Shown here piece after piece: positions 10,569 through 25,312 of a DNA stretch of 28,260 nucleotides. The first letter of the stretch is position 1. Every line of letters begins with the position of its first letter. The notes under the pieces are model-generated. The model saw only the letters and a program-made list of their open reading frames with translations. It was not told where the DNA came from and made no database searches. The DNA is taken from positions 1 to 28,260 of IMG/VR virus record IMGVR_UViG_3300009184_000155. The stretch is one strand, 5' to 3'. This stretch comes from a virus. A program made the translations under genes and the position numbers.

Positions 10569-10880
10569 TTACCAAGGTAATGGAGGTGTAACTACAGGTG
10601 GGTTTGCTAAATTAGCTAACTGATTTCCTACTGCTGTTTCTGTTTCATCTTTATCTACACCATTAGTCCAACACCATCCAAGGACTTGTTCTTGCGTTAA
10701 GTTTGCGTAAGGTGTGAATGTACCTGTTGGTGGTTGAAATGAGCAAGTAGAGTATACAGATGCGTTATATGTGCCATCTGTGCCACTACAAGTCCAATGT
10801 GCTGTTATAACAGTATCAGGATTAGTCTTTGTTGTAGAACAATCCATTGCTGTTATTGTCCATGTGTAAACATTTGCCAT
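10569..10880 (-). CDS. Small fiber-linked protein (DUF7936-like), 103 aa
   Basis: The product is 103 residues. It starts MANVYTWTITAMDCSTTKTN, continues VITAHWTCSGTDGTYNASVY and STCSFQPPTGTFTPYANLTQ, and ends EQVLGWCWTNGVDKDETE plus NPPVVTPPLPW. This is a widespread small phage protein found just after tail fiber genes; I recall it as DUF7936, with no proven function. Its five cysteines could form disulfides or bind metal. The start shares one base with the stop of the 692-residue fiber gene (TAATG), suggesting coupled production with that fiber. Its order of blocks also matches the 101-residue protein after the other fiber, which suggests a fiber-dedicated role such as an assembly or tip protein. 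Confidence 0.72.
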   Translation of the reverse strand: MANVYTWTITAMDCSTTKTNPDTVITAHWTCSGTDGTYNASVYSTCSFQPPTGTFTPYANLTQEQVLGWCWTNGVDKDETETAVGNQLANLANPPVVTPPLPW

Positions 10881-12958
10881 TATTTATTCTCCAAAGTTTC
10901 AATGCGTTGTTTAAGTTCTTCAATAGTGTTTAAAGCATTTTTTAATGACATCACAGCTATAGCTAAAACTGACCTGTCATGGTAACCCCAAGGTTTTCCT
11001 TCTTGAGGTGTAGGTGCTGCTTCTTCGCCAATAGCCTCATGTACATTTTGTGCATAAAAACCTAATTGTCTTTCTTCACCAAAAGTAGGTGCTTTTTCTT
11101 CGTTATAAAACCAATAGCCTGGTTCTAATTTTTGTAACATTGCATCTGTATTAGTCGGAACACCATCTTTTGTTTTCCAAGTTTCATCAGATACAGAAGA
11201 TATGACACCAGTAGCACTAAATGTGGCTGCACCAGCACCATAAGCAGACATTGTTACTATGCCAGCAGAACTTATACGCATCCGTTCTGCGCCAGTTGTG
11301 TTCCAGTAAAAATTACCGCCACCCGAACCAAAATACGAGTTGTAAGTTACCGAGTCCGTAAATTGAATGGTTGCGTCTGCTCCAGAACCGTTTGACCGAA
11401 GTTGAAATATTTGATTTGCAAAAGGAGTTGTGCTGGTAGCTGCTGAATCTAAAATATCTAATTTTTTGCCAGGTGAACTTGTACCAATACCTACATTACC
11501 ACTAGAATCAATACGCATCCGTTCTGTGTTGCTAGTCAAAAAGGTCGTTGCACCAGCAAACTCATTACCAAACGCAACTACACCCTCATAGCCTTTAATA
11601 TATTGAGTGCCACTTCCAGAGCCACCCATAATTATGTAATTACCACCACGAGCAACTTTAAATGCGTCACCAGTTGTACTTTGTTCTACATGAAGTTTTG
11701 TAGATGGACTAGTAGTACCTATGCCTACATTACCATTATCTAGCATAGTAGTTGTTGTAGTACCACTACCATTTGTAAATGTTAAAGCACCAATAACATA
11801 ATAATTTGAACCAATATTCCAGCTATAAGGACCACCTGTAATATATAATCTTGTAGCGTTTAAACCTCTAATATAGGCATCTGTATTTCCAGTTGAATAA
11901 ACATCTAATAAGCCAGTAGGACTACTAGTACCTATTCCTACATTACCAGCACTAGTAATACGCATTTTTTCTGATGGTGCTGCATTTAATGTACTTGATG
12001 TTAAAAAGGCTAATTGCCCAGTAGGATACTGAGCATTTGTTCTTGCACCAAAGATAGCGGAAATAATTGCTGATGAATATTGGCTTGTAGATGCCCCAGT
12101 AATTGCAGCAAAGTTTAACTGTGCAGTATTGCTAGTTGTAGTATCACCATTAGAAATAGTAATAGATGCTGTACTTCCACCAAGAGTTGTACTTGTATCT
12201 GATTTTTGTACTAATAAAGGTCTTGCCGCTCCAACTTGGTCAAATACATTATTTACTGTAGCACCTATATAAACATTACCACTTGTATCTATGCGTAGTC
12301 TTTCGCTACCGCCTGTGTACATTGTTATAGGTAAATAAGAACCTGTGCCTGTAATGGTTGCTAATATTCTTGCCTCTGTACTAAGGCTATTTAAAGATAG
12401 AAGCGAGGCGTTATTTATATCTGAGTTATTCCCTGCAGTAAAACCAGAAGCGTTACCTGTACCATTTGGAAGGATTTGAAGTATTGTATTTCCATTAGTT
12501 GTGCTTGTTTGAAAACTAACACGACTAGAATTTGTAGTATTACTAAAATCACCAGTAATACGATTACCTGTACCTGTAAATGTTAAGTTGCCTGAATCTG
12601 ATAATCCAGCAGTAGTTAAAGTAGTGCCATTAAATGTAAGGTTGGCTGAGTCTACTAGTAATCCACCTGTACTTGCATAAGTTACTCGACCACTTGTTAA
12701 TCCTGAATCAGTTATAACAGAACTAGTTAATCCAGTTAATCCAGCTAATGTAGTAGATGTTCCACCTAAACTAATAGCAGTTGAGCCTATAGTCAAAGAA
12801 CTATTAACAAGCATTGTATTTGTGACTGTGCCTGTATCGCCTGTGGTTACTAAATTACCATTAACAGTAGGAATATTTAATGTATAACTTGAGGCTGTAT
12901 TTGGACCGACTAATGCGACCTGTCCACCTAAAGTTGCTTGAAATATTAATTGACCCAT
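10880..12958 (-). CDS. Tail fiber with S74-type C-terminal intramolecular chaperone
   Basis: This 692-residue protein starts with a beta-rich region (GQLIFQATLGGQVALVGPNT; TTLAGLTGLTSSVITDSGLT). Repeated fiber units follow: SERLRIDTSGNVYIG, SEKMRITSAGNVGIGTSSP, NGNVGIGTTSPSTKLHV, TERMRIDSSGNVGIGTSSP, AERMRISSAG. The last about 105 residues resemble the peptidase S74 chaperone that trimerises a fiber and then cuts itself off. The Ser-Lys pair corresponds to S590 and K595 in S-D-E-T-W-K. QLGFYAQNVHEAIGEE and a C-terminal coiled coil (NTIEELKQRIETLENK) follow. The Arg of the usual S-D-x-R-x-K is Thr here. The expected role is receptor binding on the virion, with the C-terminus released after assembly. 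Confidence 0.83.
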   Translation of the reverse strand: MGQLIFQATLGGQVALVGPNTASSYTLNIPTVNGNLVTTGDTGTVTNTMLVNSSLTIGSTAISLGGTSTTLAGLTGLTSSVITDSGLTSGRVTYASTGGLLVDSANLTFNGTTLTTAGLSDSGNLTFTGTGNRITGDFSNTTNSSRVSFQTSTTNGNTILQILPNGTGNASGFTAGNNSDINNASLLSLNSLSTEARILATITGTGSYLPITMYTGGSERLRIDTSGNVYIGATVNNVFDQVGAARPLLVQKSDTSTTLGGSTASITISNGDTTTSNTAQLNFAAITGASTSQYSSAIISAIFGARTNAQYPTGQLAFLTSSTLNAAPSEKMRITSAGNVGIGTSSPTGLLDVYSTGNTDAYIRGLNATRLYITGGPYSWNIGSNYYVIGALTFTNGSGTTTTTMLDNGNVGIGTTSPSTKLHVEQSTTGDAFKVARGGNYIIMGGSGSGTQYIKGYEGVVAFGNEFAGATTFLTSNTERMRIDSSGNVGIGTSSPGKKLDILDSAATSTTPFANQIFQLRSNGSGADATIQFTDSVTYNSYFGSGGGNFYWNTTGAERMRISSAGIVTMSAYGAGAATFSATGVISSVSDETWKTKDGVPTNTDAMLQKLEPGYWFYNEEKAPTFGEERQLGFYAQNVHEAIGEEAAPTPQEGKPWGYHDRSVLAIAVMSLKNALNTIEELKQRIETLENK

Positions 12959-21309: not shown

Positions 21310-22596
21310 TTATTGCATCCAACTTACCACATCATAATTCATTGGCTTGCGTTTGACTACTTTCTTTTCTTGTACCATTAAAGCAATATACCTAAAAGCA
21401 TCTGCTCCATGGCTATATTGGTCATGTAAAGGCTTCATGCTAAATTTTTTAGTTTCAGGGTCTACATCATATCTGTAATGCCGTAAACATTGTAATCCTA
21501 CATCTGTATTTGTTTTATCAAAATAACAGGTTGGGAATATAGTACGAGCAGCATTAATTGAATCAGCAATAGCCACTCTTTCAATAATCCTAACATTAAA
21601 TCCACTAGAACGCACGATTTCTTCTATGCTTCTGCCATTTGCAGCTAATGTTTTATTCTGTGCATCATGAGGTAAATACAAGGTTTCATATACATAACCA
21701 AAAGTTTGTAACTTAGCCAATATTTCAGAAATAGTGGTTTGAGTAGTCTCATAATACCTAAGTAATCTGATTTCCATGCCTACAAATTGCCCTATCCATA
21801 TTGCAGTAGCATCTGCCCAACCAATATCAAAACAGGCAAATACAGGCTTAATTGGGTCATATGGAACATTACAAATTCTGCCATCTTGCTCTGCCCTAGT
21901 CATTTCCCTAGCAAATACAGCACCATCAATAGTTGATCTAGTAAACCCTTCCCATACATTTTGATAGGCTTCAAAGTCTCTATTTCTTAATGATTGCCGT
22001 TCTAAATCAAGCACTTCAGGAAACCAAGTATTATCTGACCAATTAACTTTTGTAACTATTGCATTGTCTGGTGGGCTAATTACAAAGCGTTTATAGGTTG
22101 CATCTGTAGGTAATTCAGGATTAAAAGTAATCCATATTTCACTATTTTCTTTACGAATTGTTGGTATTAATATGTCCCAACTTGTGTCCGTAACATTATT
22201 TGCCTCCTCAACCCAACAATAATCAATGCCTTCAATAGATTTAAGATTATTTATATTATTTTTAATACCGGCAAATATAAACTCTGTGCCGTTTATTCCT
22301 CTAATGGTTGATTGTGTTACCTCATAATGAGCTTCTAAACCTAAACTATATATTTGATCTACCAATAGTTTATGTACTGAATCCCTAATTGATGTTTGAA
22401 ATTCCCTTGCACAAAGGATTCTAAGTACACGTTGTACACCCATGCAAAGTAATGCACGAGCTACTGAATGTGATTTAGCAGCTCCACGACCACCATAAAG
22501 CACTCTATATCTTGAGTTTTTAGGTTCAAATAAGCACTTCAGCTTAGCTGGAAACTGAGGCCATATAAAGCCTTTATCGTCAATCTTGTTTGACAT
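21310..22596 (-). CDS. Terminase large subunit (PBSX XtmB/Terminase_3-like)
   Basis: The protein has 428 residues. Walker A is GGRGAAKS (residues 35-42) and Walker B-like IDYCWVEEA lies at about 124-132, with the catalytic Glu in the E-E pair. IWITFNPELPTDATYKRF is the coupling motif region. The nuclease half has D257 in FACFDIGWAD, D311 in LPHDAQN and D399 in SHGADAFRY, the three acidic residues of the RNase H-like active site. Length and motifs match PBSX-type large terminases. The enzyme cuts concatemers and drives DNA through the portal with ATP. Its ATG lies 17 bases inside the small-subunit gene. It is followed 9 bases later by portal. Confidence 0.93.
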   Translation of the reverse strand: MSNKIDDKGFIWPQFPAKLKCLFEPKNSRYRVLYGGRGAAKSHSVARALLCMGVQRVLRILCAREFQTSIRDSVHKLLVDQIYSLGLEAHYEVTQSTIRGINGTEFIFAGIKNNINNLKSIEGIDYCWVEEANNVTDTSWDILIPTIRKENSEIWITFNPELPTDATYKRFVISPPDNAIVTKVNWSDNTWFPEVLDLERQSLRNRDFEAYQNVWEGFTRSTIDGAVFAREMTRAEQDGRICNVPYDPIKPVFACFDIGWADATAIWIGQFVGMEIRLLRYYETTQTTISEILAKLQTFGYVYETLYLPHDAQNKTLAANGRSIEEIVRSSGFNVRIIERVAIADSINAARTIFPTCYFDKTNTDVGLQCLRHYRYDVDPETKKFSMKPLHDQYSHGADAFRYIALMVQEKKVVKRKPMNYDVVSWMQ

Positions 22597-22933
22597 TAGA
22601 ATCTACAAAAGTAATATTAATACCCTTAACTTCTGAATTTTCACCTGCTGATAGTTCAGTTACATTTGTTTCTTTCCATCCAGCCCTTGTTTTTAACCAA
22701 AAGATTGCAGCAGTCATATTACCTTTTTTAGCCTGCTGAAATAATGTAGTGGCTATTTGTGCATTAGCATCTATACGACCATCTTCTAATTCAGGCTTGT
22801 AATGCTTTCTTAATGTATCGTCTGTAATTTCTAATTTATGAGCAATATCAACATAACGAGTTCCTACAGCAGCTAAGTTTTTAACTAAACTTCTGCTTTT
22901 ATCGTCTGGTATATGCTCAATTCCTTGACTCAT
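22580..22933 (-). CDS. Terminase small subunit
   Basis: The product has 117 residues. An N-terminal helix-turn-helix is visible (SLVKNLAAVGTRYVDIAHKL, then EITDDTLRKHYKPELEDGR). The oligomerisation part follows (ANAQIATTLFQQAKKGNMTA, then AIFWLKTRAGWKETNV). This last A-[IL]-F-W-L-K-T-R-x-G-W-K is typical of small terminase subunits of many betaproteobacterial phages. It should bind the packaging site and pass DNA to the large subunit. The start overlaps the methyltransferase gene by 4 bases (ATGA) and its end overlaps terL by 17 bases, so the three are co-translated. Confidence 0.85.
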   Translation of the reverse strand: MSQGIEHIPDDKSRSLVKNLAAVGTRYVDIAHKLEITDDTLRKHYKPELEDGRIDANAQIATTLFQQAKKGNMTAAIFWLKTRAGWKETNVTELSAGENSEVKGINITFVDSNVKQD

Positions 22934-24141
22934 CCTTTTATTAACTCCGAAAGTACTGCTTGTTTACCTGTGAAATCTTCCCAACGCTTTACTATTACAT
23001 CACAATATTTAGGGTCTAATTCCATAACATAAGCGTGCCTACCATGCTTCTCAGCAGCCAACATAGTTGTTCCACTACCACCAAACAAATCTAAAACAAT
23101 ATCTCCACCTTTAGTGTTGTTTAACATTTGATATTCAAATAAAGCTACAGGCTTCATAGTTGGATGCTCCCCATTTCTGCTGGGTTTATCAAACTCTAAT
23201 ATGGTTGTTTGTTTTCTATCAGTAGCCCACAAGTGTCCAGCACCCTCTTTCCAACCATATAAACAAGGTTCATGCTTCCAATGGTAATCTTGTCTTCCCA
23301 TAACCATACTGGACTTTTTCCAAATTAAGCATTGTCTCACCTTCCAACCAGCGTCTTGTGCAGCTCCTCTGAAGTTGTAGCTTTCACTATCAGCATGCCA
23401 AATATAAAATACAGCACCAGCTTTCATAACAGTATTTGCTGAAACAAAAGCATCCCTAAGAAATTGTCTAAAATCCTCGTTGCCCATTGAATCATTAATA
23501 ATTGTTAATTTTTCCTTAGTTGCACCTTCATAAGCAACATTGTAAGGAGGATCAGTTAAAAGCATGTCAACCCCCCCCCCAACTCCCATTAACTTTTCTA
23601 CATCCGTTATGCTACAGGAATCCCCACACATAAGTCTATGATTTCCAAGGATATATATATCTCCTAACTTGGTTTTAGGTTCATCAGGTACATCAGGCAC
23701 ATCATCTTCATCTGTGAGCCCTGTAGTGCCTGTAATTGGGTTTAAAAGGGCATCAAGCTCGTTTACGTCAAATCCAAGTAAAGATAGATCAAAATCATCT
23801 GAATTTAGTTGTTGAAGCTCTAACATTAATAATTCATTATCCCAATCAGCATTTAATGCTAATTTATTGTCTGCAATAATTAATGCTTTTTTCTGTGTTT
23901 CAGTTAAATAGGCTAATTCAATAACTGGCACAGTATTCATTCCTAGCTTTCTAGCAGCAAGTAATCGACCATGACCAGCTATCAATCCATTGTCACCATC
24001 AACTAAAATAGGGTTTGTCCACCCAAATTCTTTAATTGAAGCAGCTATTTGAGCCACTTGCTCATCTGAATGTTTCCTAGAATTGTTGATATAAGGGATA
24101 AGTTTATCTATATCCCTTGATTCAATTTTAGGTTTGTTCAT
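22930..24141 (-). CDS. ParB-like/N4-N6 DNA methyltransferase fusion
   Basis: The protein has 403 residues. Residues 1-100 form a ParB/Srx-type nuclease-like domain (NPILVDGDNGLIAGHGRLLA, with the GHGR core at 56-59). A spacer of acidic residues follows at about 140-158. The C-terminal 240 residues are an amino-methyltransferase. Motif IV is LTDPPYNV (DPPY 197-200), and the SAM-binding DLFGGSGTT (351-359) comes after it, so the order is beta class. HPTMKPVALFEYQ is also present. The substrate is adenine-N6 or cytosine-N4, probably protecting phage DNA or marking it for packaging. A ten-G run encodes G188-G190 just before DPPY. The start overlaps the 64-residue gene (ATGA). Confidence 0.92.
   Translation of the reverse strand: MNKPKIESRDIDKLIPYINNSRKHSDEQVAQIAASIKEFGWTNPILVDGDNGLIAGHGRLLAARKLGMNTVPVIELAYLTETQKKALIIADNKLALNADWDNELLMLELQQLNSDDFDLSLLGFDVNELDALLNPITGTTGLTDEDDVPDVPDEPKTKLGDIYILGNHRLMCGDSCSITDVEKLMGVGGGVDMLLTDPPYNVAYEGATKEKLTIINDSMGNEDFRQFLRDAFVSANTVMKAGAVFYIWHADSESYNFRGAAQDAGWKVRQCLIWKKSSMVMGRQDYHWKHEPCLYGWKEGAGHLWATDRKQTTILEFDKPSRNGEHPTMKPVALFEYQMLNNTKGGDIVLDLFGGSGTTMLAAEKHGRHAYVMELDPKYCDVIVKRWEDFTGKQAVLSELIKG
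23571..23580 (-). repeat. Ten-base G homopolymer within the methyltransferase coding sequence
   Basis: Ten consecutive C on the plus strand (G on the coding strand) fall within codons 188-191 of the methyltransferase (Gly-Gly-Gly and the first base of Val). They lie seven codons before DPPY. In this AT-rich window it is the only long G/C homopolymer I see. With ten bases the gene is in frame. One base more or less would shift the frame before both catalytic motifs. Poly-G tracts of this length are known slipped-strand phase-variation sites in bacterial methyltransferase genes. A sequencing or assembly error cannot be excluded. Confidence 0.9.
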
Positions 24142-24332
24142 TGAACAGTTGTATCGTCAACTTCAGGAGTATTCTCAGCTATGTACTCTTGTACCTTTGC
24201 ATTGGCATCTTTAATCATTCTGTCGTGCAACTCCTGGACAACTTCCATTGGGAGTTTACGCAATCCAGCAATAATAATTTCAACTTCAGCAGTTGTATGC
24301 TCAAATGCTATTTTAACGTCTTTAAGATTCAT
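24138..24332 (-). CDS. Small helical protein of unknown function (64 aa)
   Basis: The product has 64 residues, MNLKDVKIAFEHTTAEVEII then IAGLRKLPMEVVQELHDRMI, with an acidic C-terminus ENTPEVDDTTVQ. The pattern of a variable N-terminus, a hydrophobic helix with L-x-K-L-P-[MY]-E-x-V and an amphipathic helix occurs in many small phage proteins of unknown role. There is no signal peptide or membrane segment. A good SD (AAAGGAAAACAAA) precedes the ATG. Its stop overlaps the methyltransferase start by 4 bases, so a small regulatory partner of the methyltransferase is possible but unsupported by any motif. Confidence 0.7.
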   Translation of the reverse strand: MNLKDVKIAFEHTTAEVEIIIAGLRKLPMEVVQELHDRMIKDANAKVQEYIAENTPEVDDTTVQ

Positions 24333-24862: not shown

Positions 24863-25017
24863 TTTTTAGCCGTCTTTGCAGATTCTTTGAAATCTTTAGC
24901 AGTCGGTGCTCCTTTGCTGCCTACTTTACGCATCTTCTCAACTGGCTTGCCTTCTGCCTTTTGTCGTTCAATTCGTTCTTGTTTTTTATGAATATTTGCA
25001 TACAATCCATTAGCCAT
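24859..25017 (-). CDS. Tiny basic phage protein (52 aa)
   Basis: I choose ATG 25017-25015 (MANGLYANIHKKQERIERQK) because AGGAG lies 6-7 bases upstream and because it overlaps the GroES stop by 8 bases. An earlier in-frame ATG at 25044 has no such support. The 52 residues continue AEGKPVEKMRKVGSKGAPTA and end KDFKESAKTAKK. M-R-K-x-G-x-K-G-A-P-T-x-x-x-F-x-x-[SA]-A-x-T is a recurrent ending in small phage proteins near packaging genes. Function is unknown. Strong basicity suggests nucleic-acid or virion binding. Confidence 0.76.
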   Translation of the reverse strand: MANGLYANIHKKQERIERQKAEGKPVEKMRKVGSKGAPTAKDFKESAKTAKK

Positions 25018-25312
25018 TACTATTCTCCTGTATAAAACATACATCTTGCCAACTCATTAATAAATAACGATCTTTACCCTCAAAATATTCTGTATATTTT
25101 AAGTATTCATCGTTGCCCATATGACCATACCTGACAAATGCACCAACTTCAATAGGCATTGGTTCACGCTTACCATTAGGTAATTTTTTGCCTTGACCTA
25201 CAGCTACAACAGTTCCCATGTTGTCTTTTTCATCCATGATTACCGCAATAATCTCAGATTTAACTCGTTCAATAGGTTTTATGAGGATTTTGTCACCAAG
25301 AGGTTTAAGCAT
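25010..25312 (-). CDS. Phage GroES-like co-chaperonin (Cpn10)
   Basis: This 100-residue protein follows the Cpn10 plan. It has L-x-P-L-G-D-K-I-L-I-K-P at the start, then the loop region VKSEIIAVIMDEKDNMG (18-33), the core strand GTVVAVGQGKKLPNGKREPM, PIEVGAFVRYG and the closing YLLMSWQDVCFI. It would replace or compete with host GroES as the lid on GroEL, favouring folding of the phage coat, as T4 gp31 does. The mobile loop lacks the usual G-G-I-V-L; the closest match is I-A-V-I-M. No GroEL gene is in this window. The start overlaps the upstream stop by 8 bases, with GGGAGG 10 bases upstream. Confidence 0.88.
   Translation of the reverse strand: MLKPLGDKILIKPIERVKSEIIAVIMDEKDNMGTVVAVGQGKKLPNGKREPMPIEVGAFVRYGHMGNDEYLKYTEYFEGKDRYLLMSWQDVCFIQENSNG

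Follow-up and report, generated by a model that had tools for sequence, protein, structure and literature searches.

Poly-G tracts have reportedly been found in more than 100 phage genera. A described switch of this kind is that of the Campylobacter Fletchervirus phages, whose receptor-binding proteins undergo poly-G phase variation (Sorensen et al. 2021, Cell Rep, 10.1016/j.celrep.2021.109214; as reported through PMC11868660, PMC11959909 and PMC10877375). A 2025 review of phase variation cites that study for phage phase variation (PMC11868660), a 2025 gut-phage review terms the Campylobacter phage receptor-binding case exceptional (PMC11959909), and in a 2026 review of prokaryotic methyltransferases, enzymes encoded by phages and enzymes that vary in phase are mentioned apart from each other (PMC13076061). 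Two gut-phage methylome papers (PMC10477858, PMC10711547) do not speak of phase variation, slippage or homopolymers. Among the open-licence papers searched, none was found to describe switching methyltransferases encoded by phages; an earlier description may exist elsewhere, Sorensen et al. (2021) included. Poly-G switching is known in phage receptor-binding proteins and in bacterial methyltransferases; the present analysis supports a poly-G phase-variable DNA methyltransferase encoded by a phage.

Position and sequence context of the poly-G tract

The analyzed stretch of DNA, hereafter the window, comprises 28,260 bases and is a virus record from IMG/VR. Ten consecutive C on its plus strand correspond to ten G on the coding strand of a DNA methyltransferase gene (gene nt 562-571), which confirms the originally noted count of exactly ten in codons 188-191 (Table 1). 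The claim that the tract has no equal in the window also held: G/C runs of length 3 and 4 occurred 192 and 18 times, none had a length of 5-9 and one had a length of 10, while the longest A/T run was 8. GGG was the rarest glycine codon of the window (50 of 738 Gly codons, 6.8%). Dinucleotide shuffles gave a mean of 0.69 G7 matches vs four observed (overlapping, all inside the tract), and a run of at least 10 was reached in 0.2% of 2000 trials when the 37 ORFs were resampled synonymously with the window's own codon usage. A chance origin of the G10 run was ruled out by these two procedures; an in-frame tract improbable by chance, as expected of a simple-repeat phase-variable gene, was thereby found.

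The encoded protein matched Pfam PF01555 (2.5e-26) and the phrog_498 DNA methyltransferases (4.9e-176), and its DPPY motif IV and FGGSG SAM motif, which lie within the Pfam N6_N4_Mtase domain, were invariant or nearly so among relatives (alignment A1). An N-terminal ParB_N domain was recognized from a Pfam match just under the cut-off (1.9e-05; 25.1 bits against 26.3), a match of the gene to the ParB-like phrog_620 (2.3e-58) and PDB profile matches of the domain to Spo0J/Noc/ParB. In the AlphaFold2 model (mean pLDDT 81.8), the tract forms the loop that joins helix 178-185 to strand 191-196; this strand leads into TDPPY. The relatives had been said to carry a short charged loop at this place, which is broadly correct: they have a short, polar loop (DGQL, NDRK, NGEL) that varies in length as well as in sequence. 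Conservation of the loop glycine is at least 90%. Since the loop tolerates differences in length, extra in-frame glycines would be tolerated as well. According to the computed translation, G8, G9, G11 or G12 each abolishes the product, with the protein ending at 190-195 aa, 5' of DPPY; a one-base slippage (G9 or G11) would therefore remove both motifs, as had been proposed.

The gene had also been placed directly before the terminase, and its stop indeed overlaps the start of the terminase small subunit (TerS) gene by 4 nt, followed by the large subunit (TerL) and portal genes. Elsewhere in the window, a GroES-like co-chaperonin gene (25010-25312, minus; phrog_3188, 2.4e-10) and a large tail-fibre-like ORF (10880-12958, minus) were observed, and the C-terminus of the latter (SDETWKTK...) resembles an intramolecular chaperone domain as judged by eye only.

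Table 1. Coordinates of the features described in the text; positions without a contig name are those of the window.
Feature	Position	Strand	Description
64-aa ORF	24138..24332	minus	4-nt overlap with the methyltransferase start; no PHROG match
ParB_N + N6_N4_Mtase DNA methyltransferase gene	22930..24141	minus	403 aa; ON with G10
ParB_N domain	23920..24078	minus	Pfam residues 22-74; 5' of the tract, retained in OFF products
G10 tract	23571-23580	minus	codons 188-191 (GGG GGG GGG G)
Catalytic motif IV DPPY	23542..23553	minus	codons 197-200; invariant in alignment A1
SAM-binding motif FGGSG	23071..23085	minus	codons 353-357; 3' of the tract (alignment A1)
TerS	22580..22933	minus	phrog_309, 1.1e-17
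TerL	21310..22596	minus	phrog_3717, 6.1e-64
C5 tract	L025:1493; L086:6688; L097 5286; L106:6706	minus in L097
Second C5 poly-G site	L460:1452; L471:4846; L517 832; L105:720	minus in L517

Distribution of the tract among related methyltransferases

When a strict, frame-blind pattern was used (at least 8 G, a gap and the conserved DMLxTDPP codons), at least 35 viral contigs of the window's subfamily were found with G9-G15. A wider pattern gave, among the matches listed, more than 120 viral contigs with a phage methyltransferase tract, together with 26 bacterial genome contigs, which include isolates of Streptococcus equinus, Limosilactobacillus, Collinsella, Parasutterella, Desulfotomaculum and Pseudoramibacter. 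Such runs are scarce at other places: over the remainder of the fetched loci, roughly one G run of at least 8 was counted per 47-50 kb, and the 2-Mb genome of S. equinus Sb05 contains two G8 runs, one of which is the prophage methyltransferase site.

Most relatives were without the tract. Among 80 relatives of the Limosilactobacillus enzyme that were sampled without regard to the tract, the maximal G run near the site had a bimodal distribution: 1-4 in 75, 5-6 in none and 7-9 in five, one of these last lying at a neighbouring site. Javan213 (S. equinus) carries G8, and no tract was present in the phrog_498 members of S. pyogenes that were read; among 297 genomes scanned from the family to which S. 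equinus belongs, the tract was seen only in S. equinus itself. It was likewise not found in the Porphyromonas, Gordonia and Aeromonas phages or in the matches labelled 'Methyltransferase / hypothetical protein'. The search for the tract in related phages, suggested at the outset, thus had a divided outcome: it recurs at the same site with varied lengths and frames, but most relatives have unrelated codons there and no tract. Because lineages with the tract alternate with lineages that lack it (at least 21 changes, see below), this tract-less majority does not refute the prediction.

Single members of the ParB methyltransferase family have G8-G9 elsewhere in the gene (L272:3178, L297:602, L316:2953, L331:1318 and L327:2998). 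G9 runs were also seen in ORFs that, as judged by eye only, resemble PAPS-reductase/DndC-like proteins (L110, minus, 2415; L115:543), and both of these contigs bear the methyltransferase tract too.

Tract length and reading frame in near-identical copies

Tract lengths were read from assemblies, many of them metagenomic. L143 (G10) and L198 (G8) have flanks that are 100% identical over 761 bp, and their long alignment (8,747 bp) contains 15 mismatches and two indels, one of which is at the tract. L087 (G9) and L110 (G11) are 99.9% identical over 1060 bp, with a G10 copy at 98.6%, and in 1,787 bp they differ by one mismatch and a sole indel, the tract. The flanks of L127 (G10) and L204 (G11) are 99.8% identical over 1060 bp, the tract again being the sole indel in 10,036 bp with 96 mismatches. 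One group of ~99% identity comprises L129 (G11), L183 (G10), L174 (G18) and L236 (G15); near-identical phage isolates of this group were not found in the phage collection. Near-identical copies together span G8-G18, and more diverged pairs have further indels besides the tract. PCR or sequencing stutter may lie behind some of the one-G differences.

Among all tract copies, with some contigs counted twice, 90 were in frame (ON), 62 were out of frame (OFF, ~40%) and 21 were without a resolved frame. Distinct proteins with a resolved frame comprised 34 ON and 23 OFF (~60% ON), vs 33% under random frames. Assemblies of isolates contain OFF copies as well, such as L. urinaemulieris L243 (G9; contig-name coverage ~329), L250 and L252. 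Of the Limosilactobacillus prophages, L235 (G8) is ON and L243 is OFF.

Length polymorphism between near-identical copies was found among relatives and not in the window's own clade (the window, L001/L092, L081 and L082), in which all four copies are G10 and ON; flank-anchored, tract-blind scans of this clade gave G10 only.

The methylase of Streptococcus phage Javan492 (L253, 2486-3652) is annotated as two ORFs. The two-ORF methylases of Javan447, Javan476 and Javan492 were considered as OFF states and rejected, since no tract is present and the Javan492 split lies ~0.4 kb 3' of DPPY; this split is an ordinary disruption or a sequencing error.

Selection on OFF copies and phylogeny

For pairs in which both copies are OFF, dN/dS 3' of the tract was 0.009 (L093/L110 and L087/L093), 0.042 (L100/L114), 0.11 (L085/L107) and 0.14 (L224/L228), values comparable to those of ON-ON pairs. 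A region that is out of frame in both genomes and nevertheless conserved must have been translated during the greater part of its past, and pseudogene decay of the OFF copies was ruled out by the dN/dS of 0.009-0.14 in the out-of-frame part. Purifying selection on OFF copies points to reversible switching instead of decay. A quick FastTree phylogeny of the part 3' of DPPY (179 distinct sequences), in which gain and loss are indistinguishable, required the tract to appear or disappear at least 21 times and the ON/OFF frame to change at least 16 times.

Poly-G tracts in C5-cytosine methyltransferases

In unrelated C5-cytosine methyltransferases of phages, G8-G17 follows immediately on PCQD[IL]S, which contains the catalytic PCQ motif. 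The 111 distinct flanks comprised 60 ON, 22 OFF and 29 without a resolved frame, a few of the frame-ambiguous ones being off-target or having another downstream motif, which makes this collection less clean than that of the ParB enzymes. In one pair with an identical flank of 984 bp, G15 (ON) was found against G13 (OFF). The phages L025, L086, L097 and L106 have both ParB-type and C5 tracts. A second poly-G site (G13-G15) was observed further 3' in related C5 genes, after CCAGACAC.

In a small census of G runs of at least 14, DNA methyltransferases made up five of the six internal sense-strand coding cases with a recognizable domain: four C5 enzymes (L086, recognized via the PCQ motif and not by Pfam, L460, L471 and L517) and one N6/N4 enzyme (L519), the sixth case being DUF968. 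The L519 gene, from an IMG/VR record, encodes a different, type III Mod-like N6/N4 methyltransferase, and its G15 (L519:13592) stands shortly after DPPYN, apparently out of frame. Most runs of at least 14 G in the viral-contig census stood near the ends of fetched stretches, 83 of them no more than 250 nt away, which suggests that G runs of this length near contig ends are sequencing or assembly artefacts.

Discussion

The G10 tract is very probably a slipped-strand ON/OFF switch in a DNA methyltransferase that the phage encodes. At tract lengths of G10 (or G7, G13 etc.), the ParB_N and methyltransferase halves would be in frame and the enzyme would be made, whereas a tract that becomes one or two G longer or shorter as the phage DNA replicates would bring a stop a few codons further on, ahead of DPPY and the SAM motif, and would leave a fragment with ParB_N only. 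The simplest presumed mechanism is slipped-strand mispairing, as in bacterial contingency genes. The original suggestion of a possible phase-variable phage methyltransferase is supported by near-identical relatives that differ in tract length and frame and by purifying selection on their OFF copies. The window clade is uniformly G10, and switching in the window phage is deduced from relatives at ~80% protein identity; judged from sequence, phase variation is supported at the level of the family and is probable for the window phage.

Could the differences in length be artefacts, in which G runs of at least 9 were mis-sized through PCR stutter and Illumina errors and the gene is always in frame? 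The data are assemblies, many from metagenomes, and the 83 census runs close to stretch ends lie as artefacts would. Mis-sizing, however, leaves the existence of the run unexplained, namely a G10 with no other run above 4 that recurs at one site across lineages; the differences of 2-8 G between near-identical copies exceed usual stutter, and isolate assemblies hold OFF copies too, which together make this explanation very unlikely. A neutral microsatellite, in which the near-invariant loop glycine seeds GGG, slippage lengthens it and loss of frame is a deleterious load only, is unlikely. The conserved glycine and the absence of the tract from most relatives agree with such an origin, and slippage does not require selection, but the window uses GGG less than any other Gly codon, the gap at lengths 5-6, the repeated gain or loss and the parallel tracts in the C5 fold suggest maintenance, and methyltransferases predominate in the small census described above.

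Two further explanations were considered. Ribosomes that leave a truncated methyltransferase reading frame might miss the overlapping TerS start, giving OFF genomes with less terminase. The 4-nt overlap in the window clade would fit such tuning, as would the finding that 61 of 133 tract loci have a terminase homolog no more than 2.6 kb downstream; the tuning of terminase is nonetheless highly improbable, because TerS starts ~20-30 nt past the methyltransferase stop in other tract phages, the C5 methyltransferase tracts sit in other genes, and a strong loss of terminase should be lethal, yet the OFF state is common. Slippage can occur at runs of 9 or more G, and transcriptional slippage or ribosomal frameshifting would yield both full-length and truncated ParB_N products from each genome at any tract length; stand-alone ParB-like proteins do occur in phages (phrog_620 annotation). 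Slippage at the RNA level does not predict the changes of length observed in the DNA and is hardly probable as the whole explanation, although it could add leakiness to a DNA switch.

Under slipped-strand switching, a phage population would be a mixture of modified and unmodified genomes, and packaged genomes would differ in methylation, as first envisaged. Methylated genomes would survive in hosts with a matching restriction system, and unmethylated ones would survive methyl-directed restriction or escape the cost or regulatory effect of methylation. The benefit of switching is likely to be this bet-hedging between protection from restriction and methyl-directed restriction or cost. It is rather probable that poly-G switches have evolved repeatedly in unrelated phage DNA methyltransferases across many host phyla, in enzymes of the ParB-fused N6/N4 and the C5-cytosine types and at times in both within one phage, with differently modified genomes in a single clone as the result. 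They would form a phage-side counterpart of bacterial phase-variable restriction.

If this is true, DNA modification in phages would be a random, heritable and reversible trait within a clone and not a fixed property; this might account for methylation that is patchy and for plating efficiencies that vary. Surveys of phage methylomes (e.g. PMC10477858, PMC10711547) would then average over mixed populations, and bet-hedging against restriction would be readily testable. Many phage methyltransferases that databases record as 'frameshifted' may then be switches and not pseudogenes.

As regards known systems, the solved structure nearest to the methyltransferase half is that of a CcrM-type (beta class) adenine methyltransferase (6pbd, 9e-21); that match spans this half only and contains no ParB_N. 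The phrog_498 phage methyltransferases, including those of Streptococcus Javan phages, are alike in family and in their place before the terminase, but most members lack the tract. Bacterial phasevarions (Mod genes, Cj0031; PMC4889913) likewise switch a DNA methyltransferase by a simple repeat; their enzymes belong to chromosomal restriction-modification systems, often of type III or IIG, whereas the window enzyme is phage-borne, has a ParB_N domain, adjoins the terminase and has no restriction partner seen in the window. With the Fletchervirus switch it has in common a phage gene with an in-frame poly-G tract, in which a stochastic change of frame would give a mixed phage population; the Fletchervirus gene encodes a receptor-binding protein for host recognition, whereas the gene described here encodes a DNA-modifying enzyme, a methyltransferase.
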